Of a DNA stretch of 64,000 bases, positions 36,118-38,263 are shown one piece after another. This stretch comes from a virus, in IMG/VR virus record IMGVR_UViG_3300034012_002457, positions 1 through 64,000 of that record; one strand, written 5' to 3'. Under the pieces are notes generated by a model. The model ran no database searches. It saw nothing but the letters and a program-made list of their open reading frames with translations, and had not been told where the DNA came from. Position numbers and translations under genes: made by a program. Position 1 is the stretch's first letter, and each line of letters opens with the position of its first letter.

Positions 36118-36124
36118 CAAAGAA

Positions 36125-36148
36125 AAAGGGGGCTTGCGCCCCCTTTCT
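36125..36148. terminator. Hairpin between the reductase genes
   Basis: Perfect 9-bp inverted repeat AAAGGGGGC / GCCCCCTTT with loop TTGC, followed by TCTGCT. It could reduce transcription into the small-subunit gene and set the subunit ratio. CATAATAG just upstream of the next ATG may be a -10 box. Confidence 0.65.
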
Positions 36149-36179: not shown

Positions 36180-36947
36180 ATGATTGCCAAGACCAAGAGC
36201 CCCGATCTTTCCGTTGAAAATGAAGGCCCCTATCTTTCCATGATTGCCAAGAAACGGCCTTGGCAGGCCGTGCCTGTGAGCAAAGGCAAGTTGCAAGAAG
36301 GGGGCGAGGATACGATTTTCTCGCTTCTTGCGTTGCGCCATTTGGAACTGCCTGTGAAGGACTTTCTGGAGCAGGGGCTGCAGAAAGAGCTTCCTTCTAC
36401 GCCTGGCATTGTTGAGGCGCTGCGTCATAACCAGCAGGATGAGCAGCGTCATGATGAGGCGCTGAACTATGTGACGGCTGCCCATGGCACGAATGAAAAG
36501 GCGGAGAAAGAAGCCCTGAACATCCTGAAAGCATGGCAAGAGCATCCTGCCCATCCCATTTTGAAAGCTGCCATTTTGGAGCGCAGCATTTTCTTTGTGG
36601 TCTTGCCATTTTTCCGCTTTAACGGCGACATTGGCATTCGCACTGTGGCTGCTGATATTAGTCGGGATGAGATTACGCACGTTGGCGTGCATAGTCTGAT
36701 TGCTCGGGAGCTTGGCGAAACTGCTGGGCAGAGCCTGAACAAACTGCGCCGGGCCACTGCATTGTGGGCCTTTGATCAGCTTGGTGCCCATAGCAACAAA
36801 TGGTTGGACAAAGACTTTTGGTTGCGTCAAAGTGACAATTTGTTTGAGAAGGGCAGGGCTGAGGAACTGAACGACACGGCTCGCAGTCGGATGCCGGCGT
36901 TCTTTGAGGCAGCAAATAATGATCTACCTAGCTATGGTCGTGCATAG
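36180..36947 (+). CDS. nrdB: Ribonucleotide reductase small (R2-like) subunit, no radical tyrosine seen
   Basis: 255 residues. Ferritin-like metal ligands are visible: QDEQRH (E88, H91), ILERSIFFVV (E134) and SRDEITHVGVH (E164, H167). It would hold the metal centre that starts the radical in the large subunit. The residue four after the first His, where the radical Tyr sits in class Ia, is Leu95, so the protein may resemble tyrosine-less classes. The start is unusual: ATGATTGCCAAGA occurs at 36180 and again at 36240, giving two in-frame starts. Confidence 0.75.
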   Translation: MIAKTKSPDLSVENEGPYLSMIAKKRPWQAVPVSKGKLQEGGEDTIFSLLALRHLELPVKDFLEQGLQKELPSTPGIVEALRHNQQDEQRHDEALNYVTAAHGTNEKAEKEALNILKAWQEHPAHPILKAAILERSIFFVVLPFFRFNGDIGIRTVAADISRDEITHVGVHSLIARELGETAGQSLNKLRRATALWAFDQLGAHSNKWLDKDFWLRQSDNLFEKGRAEELNDTARSRMPAFFEAANNDLPSYGRA

Positions 36948-36950
36948 CCT

Positions 36951-37014
36951 GGAAAGCTAAGACAGCGCTGGGCAAATAGCCCAGAAGAGCCGGGTGCAAT
37001 TCCCGGCCTTTCCA
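36951..37014 (+). ncRNA. tRNA-like element lacking a D-arm
   Basis: 64 nt. Acceptor GGAAAGC pairs six bases with the 3' strand; T8 and A9 are present; only 8 bases replace the D-arm. A 5-bp anticodon-type stem CTGGG / CCCAG encloses CAAATAG, a 5-base variable segment follows, then a T-arm CCGGG TGCAATT CCCGG that keeps T54, C56, R57, A58 and C61. Position 33 is A, not T, so decoding is doubtful. Shifted by one base, TGGAAAG / CTTTCCA makes a perfect 7-bp closing stem. It may be a decayed tRNA or a leader element of the next gene. Confidence 0.5.
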
Positions 37015-37030: not shown

Positions 37031-37612
37031 ATGAGCGCCTTCGTCACAAGCGACACGCACTTTGGCCATGCCAAGATTCTGGAATTTATGCGTCCAGACG
37101 GGGCATTGTTGCGTCCGTTTTCCTCATTGGAAGAAATGCATGAAACGCTCGTAGAGCGTTGGAACAACATTGTCCATGCCAAAGACAGAGTGTACGTATT
37201 GGGAGACGTGGCCATCCCAAGGTCTGGCTTGCATGTTTTAGACCGTCTTAATGGCAGTAAGGTGTTGGTTCGCGGGAATCATGATATTTTTAAGTTTCAG
37301 GATTATGCAAAATATTTTGATGACATAAGAGGCGCATTCTTTCGTGATGGGCTAATTTATACGCATATTCCCGTGCATCCTGCAAATTTAACCGGACGAT
37401 ATGTTGGCAATATACATGGCCATTTGCATTGTCATTTAATTAGGCATGACGATGGAACCATTGACAAAAGATATTTCAATGCATGTGTGGAAGTAAATAA
37501 TTTTACGCCAGTAGCGTTAGATTGTATACAAAACTATTTTGGCCTGGGCCATGGACGAGCGTCGGACGTTCAACACGCCGATCAGGGAGCCATGGAACGC
37601 GCCCATCCATAA
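37031..37612 (+). CDS. Calcineurin-like metallophosphoesterase
   Basis: 193 residues from ATG 37031. Metal-binding motifs in order: FVTSDTHFGH (D.H), VYVLGDVAIP (GD), VLVRGNHDIF (GNHD), YTHIPVHP and GNIHGHLHCH (GH.H). Such phage phosphoesterases may act on nucleotides, RNA ends or signalling molecules; the substrate is unknown here. It follows the tRNA-like element by 16 bases. Confidence 0.85.
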   Translation: MSAFVTSDTHFGHAKILEFMRPDGALLRPFSSLEEMHETLVERWNNIVHAKDRVYVLGDVAIPRSGLHVLDRLNGSKVLVRGNHDIFKFQDYAKYFDDIRGAFFRDGLIYTHIPVHPANLTGRYVGNIHGHLHCHLIRHDDGTIDKRYFNACVEVNNFTPVALDCIQNYFGLGHGRASDVQHADQGAMERAHP

Positions 37613-38117: not shown

Positions 38118-38189
38118 GGTCCACCTCCCGTTCCGTAGGTGGGTGTCATGCGCCCCATGCGGGGTGAACGTAGATGCAGCTTAGCACGA

Positions 38190-38263
38190 TACCCTCGGTG
38201 GGAGTCGAACCCACACTGGAGCGATTTTAAGTCGCTTGCCTCTGCCGGTTGGGCTACAAGGGC
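38190..38263 (-). tRNA. tRNA with anticodon UAA (Leu) but short variable loop
   Basis: 74 nt, complete cloverleaf on the - strand: 7-bp acceptor GCCCTTG / CGAGGGT, 3-bp D-stem, anticodon stem AGCGA / TCGCT with loop CTTAAAA (anticodon TAA), variable segment CCAGT, T-arm GTGGG TTCGACT CCCAC, discriminator A. CCA is not encoded. The anticodon assigns Leu, yet leucine tRNAs normally have a long variable arm; here it has only five bases. Confidence 0.85.

Follow-up and report, generated by a model that had tools for sequence, protein, structure and literature searches.

The window analysed here is a stretch of 64,000 nucleotides that forms part of a 68,541-base virus record (IMG/VR IMGVR_UViG_3300034012_002457, positions 1 to 64,000). 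Within it, a ribonucleotide reductase gene (nrdB) is followed by a phosphoesterase gene, and a small tRNA-like element lies between the two, separated by 2 nt from the nrdB stop codon (36945-36947) and by 16 nt from the phosphoesterase ATG (37031). Neither protein product has a Pfam name, and both were named by PHROGs. The nrdB product is 65% identical to gp002 of Synechococcus phage S-CBS4 and the phosphoesterase is 59% identical to gp004 of the same phage; the S-CBS4 intergenic sequence holds nothing that resembles the element by eye, and that locus gives no match to a model of the element (R2, described below). In the window, no abiF RNA or other RNA module precedes the element, which stands directly 3' of nrdB, as it does in one relative (L010), and CCA is not encoded 3' of its discriminator-like base. 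The coordinates are collected in Table 1.

Two further features were seen nearby. A strong terminator-like hairpin lies between an nrdA-like gene and nrdB (36121-36148; minus strand is the orientation of the scan), and on the minus strand at 38120-38263 a tRNA-Leu(UAA) precedes a Glutamine-II riboswitch aptamer; many relatives have the two in this order.

Table 1. Features of the locus, with positions in the window; form a, form b and model R2 are described in the text.
Feature	Position	Strand	Basis
nrdB, class Ia ribonucleotide reductase beta subunit	36180..36947	+	PHROG 6799, E 1e-108
Whole tRNA-like element, form a	36950..37014	+	Fold z, covariation, match to form-b model R2
U-1; body; discriminator-like A	36950; 36951-37013; 37014	+	R2 match E 1.9e-8, covariation
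Acceptor-stem 5' strand GGAAAG	36951..36956	+	Pairs with 37008-37013; 99% of cells paired; compensatory A-U/G-C changes
Reduced D region CUAAGACAGCG, 11 nt	36957..36967	+	Invariant in all form-a relatives; 3-bp pairing with 36956 in the minimum-energy fold
Anticodon-position hairpin, 6 bp, pentaloop AAAUA (family NNAUA)	36968..36984	+	Hairpin pattern, covariation
T-arm-like hairpin, 6 bp, loop UGCAAUU	36989..37007	+	Covariation including A-U/G-C swaps
Acceptor-stem 3' strand CUUUCC	37008..37013	+	Covariation
Phosphoesterase gene, 3' of the element	37031..37612	+	PHROG 547, E 4e-45

Fold and conservation of structure

The sequence at 36950-37014 folds at -29 kcal/mol, compared with -18.8 +/- 3.0 in shuffled sequences (z -3.37), and only 1 of 200 shuffles matches its fold energy. 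An earlier note, made from the letters of the window, had placed a tRNA-like RNA at this position, and the three-stem fold bears it out. The same note gave the stems as 6-7 bp; there are indeed three, but the outermost pair (36950-37014) is broken in relatives (C-A or U-C, for example in L156, L196 and L161), so that the acceptor stem is better read as 6 bp flanked by U-1 and a discriminator-like base. Acceptor and T stems then stack to 6 + 6 = 12 bp, equal to the length in tRNA (7 + 5), and with U-1 and G+1 this 12-bp helix has features of an RNase P substrate.

The D-arm, described in the note as lacking, needs more careful wording. No proper D-arm is present, although the minimum-energy fold contains a possible mini D-arm of 3 bp, GCU-AAGAC-AGC, which is invariant in all relatives. 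Because the sequence does not vary, covariation can neither prove nor exclude this arm, and 'reduced' is a safer description than 'absent'.

Pairing is closely maintained among the relatives. In 13 distinct form-a sequences, 98.8% of cells are paired and 7 of the 19 pairs show changes on both sides; the both-sided cells number 20, compared with 7.3 in shuffles, and 0 of 500 shuffles reach that value. When the partners are slid by one column, pairing in the same 13 sequences falls to 55-62%. Both-sided changes affect 10 pairs and 30 cells in a larger form-a set (3.4 and 8.4 in shuffles) and 13 pairs and 111 cells in form b (9.0 and 34.5), values again reached by 0 of 500 shuffles in each set; the shuffles ignore relatedness, and these figures are to be read as counts of covariation rather than as probabilities. 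Compensatory changes in related phages, which the earlier note had named as a check on its proposal, are found in many phages and in all three helices of both forms. These alignments show a three-helix RNA structure conserved under selection at the RNA level. An intrinsic terminator, consisting of the T-arm hairpin and CUUUCC, was considered separately and rejected; the tail has no proper T run, and the loop is the invariant T-loop.

Two forms in one genomic slot

Searches of IMG/VR with nrdB and the phosphoesterase yielded about 106 loci, and homologues of the element occur in many of the nrdB loci. They come in two forms. The D-arm-poor form of the window (form a) is found in 34 viral stretches in IMG/VR, a count that comes from a strict pattern (a looser viral pattern scan gave mostly chance matches), and the form-a matches adjoin nrdB in all those checked. 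Form b occupies the same slot with a full cloverleaf, including a 4-bp D-stem, a D-loop with GG in 41 of 42 rows and the T-loop UUCGAUU. Its pattern finds 70 IMG/VR viral stretches, one of which (L247) is an outlier that resembles an ordinary tRNA and has a Trp anticodon. Since parts of the T-loop and D-stem are fixed by the patterns, invariance there is partly imposed in the larger sets; the T-loop UGCAAUU of form a is nevertheless invariant in A2, an alignment derived from nrdB that is free of this bias.

The exact patterns of both forms have 0 matches in 84,980 species genomes, a search that would miss diverged bacterial copies. Isolate phages contain no copy of form a, and plasmids contain no credible element or hairpin. 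On this distribution, the element is best described as a phage-restricted RNA family in uncultivated phages, probably of lake cyanobacteria, related to S-CBS4.

The two forms are related. Model R2, built from form b only, matches the window at E 1.9e-8, with E-values of 1e-5 to 2e-7 for other form-a copies, and model R1, built from form a only, reaches form b down to 2.5e-4 (Infernal; all of these E-values are rough). Both forms retain the 12-bp acceptor/T helix and U-1/G+1, and they share one 'anticodon' hairpin, C-NNAUA-G. Position -1 is U in 14/17 form-a and 27/33 form-b copies, and position +1 is G in 17/17 and 27/33, respectively. Where the D-loop GG is lost, the T-loop differs too, being UGCAAUU instead of UUCGAUU; this would be expected if the elbow contact had been given up or rewired.

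Forms a and b also replace one another. On a tree of nrdB with 90 rows (24 with a, 46 with b, 20 with neither), the two are never present in one interval, and at least 21 label changes are needed. The exchange can be followed most closely between L240 (form a) and L260 (form b), which are 94.9% identical over the 300 nt upstream and 85.2% identical over the 300 nt downstream; the element has been swapped at its own ends. This pair, with its long overlap, is the only one used, since end-gap-free identities are spurious where the overlap is small. By this comparison, the forms are interchangeable in one genomic slot.

A portable hairpin

The hairpin in the anticodon position can be searched for by itself, with the pattern CG-TTRGGC-ANATA-GCCYAG-AA. 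In the window it matches at 36966-36986 with 1 mismatch, where 0.03 matches would be expected at <=3 mismatches, and in IMG/VR it matches at least 120 viral stretches. When the first 54 unique contexts were classified by pattern, 49 fell outside both form a and canonical form b (at least one of them, L387, is a diverged form b), and nearly all of the 49 are a plain stand-alone hairpin. This is built of a lower stem, a 1-nt bulge, 3 bp and an internal loop (G versus AA(G/A)), followed by the stem and loop shared with the element. The lower stems covary (79 both-sided cells versus 32); the upper stem is fixed by design, since these loci were collected by pattern. The hairpin matches no Rfam family.

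Hairpins of this kind keep company with tRNAs. A tRNA on the same strand lies within 500 nt in 40/66 cases, compared with 29/132 random positions in the same loci, and in about 25/66 cases the hairpin starts flush after a tRNA 3' end. The stand-alone hairpin is also present in the isolates S-SZBM1, DSL-LC02 and S-EIVl. Its occurrence in such different settings shows, at least by pattern and pairing, that the hairpin moves between scaffolds and is portable. Examples within cyanophage tRNA arrays are found at L333:7338-7380, L327:659-696 and L434:1501-1539, and at L384:11430-11477 the NNAUA hairpin occurs twice in tandem within one lower stem.

Neighbouring RNA modules

In relatives, the module just 5' of the element may be an abiF RNA, a longer abiF-like hairpin, a likely pseudoknot or some other hairpin. 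The abiF RNA (RF03085), a type III-like antitoxin RNA, scores above its gathering score in 10 contigs of relatives, and in many contigs 2-4 nt separate it from the element downstream. In C. difficile, an abiF-motif RNA binds the AbiF toxin directly and so neutralises it (PMC12373285). An Abi_2 protein or gene was found in none of the 13 abiF-RNA-linked records searched, most of which are fragments. In the isolate cyanophages S-CREM1, S-SZBM1 and S-SRM01, a genuine tRNA (Gly, Ala and Arg) follows the abiF RNA by a few nucleotides, in the slot held by form a or b in the loci studied here; the abiF RNA of S-CREM1 is listed in the paper on that phage (PMC9964418).

Several observations concern these modules in their own right. 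Copies of abiF RNA in relatives include L017:2483-2519, L145:394-430 and L235:1886-1922, about 43 Mycobacterium phage records contain abiF RNA or sequence that matches it strongly, and plasmids yield a single weak abiF-like match. Phage abiF RNA with no visible AbiF gene nearby is a candidate counter-defence RNA. About 60 nt before the element, L045 and its relatives have the sequence AGAG-CCTAAGC-CTCT ... GCTTAGG-CCATC, likely an H-type pseudoknot; this module, for which no Rfam family was seen, also occurs in the tRNA array of the isolate S-SRM01 (L328:1040-1098). At L038:5870-5960, and in L018 upstream of 5909, there is a longer abiF-like hairpin, TTAGCTC...GATGATGCNCAAAC, which has a long inserted stem and is unrecognised by Rfam.

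Proposed mechanism and alternatives

We propose, tentatively and with a probability of about 0.4, that the element is a D-arm-poor tRNA-like scaffold that is freed by tRNA enzymes and whose hairpin works in trans, an anti-defence decoy being its most likely role. Host RNase P would cut after U-1 and a 3' tRNA-processing activity would cut after the acceptor stem; excision would free a stable RNA of about 63-64 nt and would also give the upstream nrdB mRNA or RNA modules a clean 3' end. The freed RNA could then, with less assurance, act through its hairpin, which would most likely imitate an antitoxin or serve as a decoy, occupying a host defence protein that cuts or senses RNA, perhaps in parallel to what the neighbouring abiF RNA would do for AbiF. 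The invariant 11-nt junction may, instead, itself serve as a binding site. Processing alone leaves the conserved hairpin unexplained and the hairpin alone leaves the tRNA-like body unexplained, and so the model needs both parts. Read in this way, the element probably acts as a non-coding RNA during infection and possibly as a decoy against bacterial defences.

Among the options raised in the earlier note, the one that survives is a minimal tRNA mimic whose targets would be tRNA-processing or defence enzymes, and it would fit, because a conserved minihelix with U-1/G+1 is joined to a portable hairpin beside the abiF antitoxin RNA. A wider scheme, which we regard as doubtful though worth stating, is that cyanophages carry arrays of exchangeable RNA modules (abiF RNA, pseudoknots, the NNAUA hairpin) that are freed by tRNA enzymes, each neutralising an RNA-regulated or RNA-targeting host defence; the window RNA would be the self-processing version, with the hairpin in the anticodon arm of a body that has no normal D-arm. 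Whatever its role, this is a tRNA-like RNA of bacterial viruses whose fold is kept under selection while the normal D-arm is lost, with a sister form, a full cloverleaf, to set beside it. Should the decoy reading be true, it would add, beside abiF RNA, a testable class of RNA-based phage counter-defence.

The element might instead serve only to punctuate transcripts, as a cleavage site for RNase P (and a 3' tRNA-processing enzyme) that parts the mRNA of nrdB, or the upstream RNA modules, from that of the phosphoesterase, the excised piece being inert. This is unlikely but has to be taken seriously: the 12-bp minihelix with U-1/G+1 is what such a site would offer, the element abuts the preceding modules, no further RNA module separates it from the next gene, and isolates have a genuine tRNA in the slot after abiF RNA. 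What an inert piece leaves unaccounted for is the hairpin, which is conserved both in sequence and by compensatory changes and also exists alone, outside any tRNA-like body; RNase P is not known to require an arm in the anticodon position. Improbable, by comparison, is a recombination target or selfish RNA-coding cassette, which would persist through exchange favoured by its tRNA-like ends rather than for a product. The sharp swap boundaries and the many label changes on the nrdB tree are in line with it, but selection at the RNA level, visible in G-U and compensatory changes, is not needed by a target of DNA recombination.

A functional but unusual phage tRNA is very improbable. In its favour, ARAGORN names several form-b copies tRNA-Ile(GAU), and loop positions 35-37 read AUA, as in Ile and Met tRNAs. 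The window at 36950-37014, however, receives no tRNA call from ARAGORN or Rfam (the RF00005 gathering score is not reached), and with the gathering score as cut-off, the Rfam tRNA model does not report form b in the loci scanned. The G18 G19 of a canonical D-arm and the U55 C56 of a canonical T-loop are missing from the element, where the 11-nt CUAAGACAGCG has no GG and the T-loop reads UGCAAUU, whereas both GG and UUCGAUU are present in form b. Nor is there a canonical U33 with a fixed anticodon. The absence of U33 had been pointed out in the earlier note, correctly, as the window has A33; position 33 is A in 14/17 form-a and 18/33 form-b copies, and U is usually absent there. At the wobble position, 34, form a has A, C or G and form b any of the four bases. 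C32 faces G38 and is able to pair with it, which would leave a loop of 5 nt; in some copies the loop is longer. Of 309 genuine tRNAs from these loci in which the anticodon arm is clear, 304 carry U33 and just 3 show C32-G38, and the hairpin core is found in 0 of about 400 genuine tRNAs, the single match being a form-b copy. To judge from these features, the element does not decode.

Still less probable is a cis-acting leader or riboswitch of the phosphoesterase gene, a possibility that the earlier note had suggested. The distance to this gene is 16 nt in the window and about 20 nt in many relatives, but it extends to about 900 nt in others, other ORFs intervene in L031, L017, L210 and L292, and in L254 and L282 the phosphoesterase gene is upstream of the element; the position before one gene is thus not constant, and forms a and b exchange in the same slot, all of which contradicts a leader switch. 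A decayed tRNA, the relic of a former tRNA gene and another suggestion of the note, can be dismissed almost entirely: the tRNA-like length and arms, the lost D-arm and the lack of a tRNA call would suit it, but it is contradicted by compensatory changes that maintain all three helices in many lineages, by the invariant 11-nt junction and by repeated spread through cassette exchange.

Comparison with known RNAs

No earlier description of the RNA family or of the hairpin was found in the open-access papers searched, and neither reaches an Rfam family. Below-threshold Rfam matches (S4-Clostridia, SorX, Tymo, permuted tmRNA and miRNAs) were judged to be chance. With canonical phage tRNA (RF00005) the element shares the 12-bp acceptor/T helix, the 7-nt T-loop, a hairpin in the anticodon position and U-1/G+1; it differs in its reduced D-arm, the lack of U33, C32-G38 and the variable position 34. 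Phage tRNAs can rescue phages from tRNA-cutting defences such as anticodon nucleases and retrons, and rescue by a phage tRNA-Tyr depends on its anticodon (PMC11555353). The abiF RNA resembles the element as a small, phage-borne structured RNA and is unlike it in fold and sequence, with no match in the window (gathering score 37 bits); its antitoxin role is established for RCd22 of C. difficile, not for the phage copies considered here.

The Tymo_tRNA-like RNA of plant viruses (RF00233) is similar in its tRNA mimicry and in having a UGCAA-type T-loop. It scores 12.6 bits against a threshold of 40, and the element has no pseudoknotted acceptor and is intergenic in a DNA phage rather than at a genome 3' end. 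The tRNA-like domain of tmRNA is a tRNA-like body without a D-stem; the element has no tag-reading frame, and the permuted tmRNA model matches only 17 nt, at 11 bits versus 47. Phage T4 likewise codes for small stable RNAs, C and D, to which no role has been assigned and which lie within a tRNA cluster.

Closest in build is RAGATH-21 (RF03097), whose full-length alignment to the element comprises a closing stem, an 11-nt junction, a hairpin with a 5-nt loop, a short linker and a T-arm-like hairpin whose loop, UGCAAUU, is identical. The score is 17.4 bits versus a gathering score of 70.3 (E 1.6), the stems are partitioned differently, and matches to the RAGATH-21 pattern adjoin structural-gene-like ORFs in unrelated (pro)virus contigs, not nrdB. 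The two are alike in build and may be homologous. In L311-L323, RAGATH-21-like RNAs with a tRNA-like T-loop are similarly placed, just upstream of structural-gene-like ORFs.
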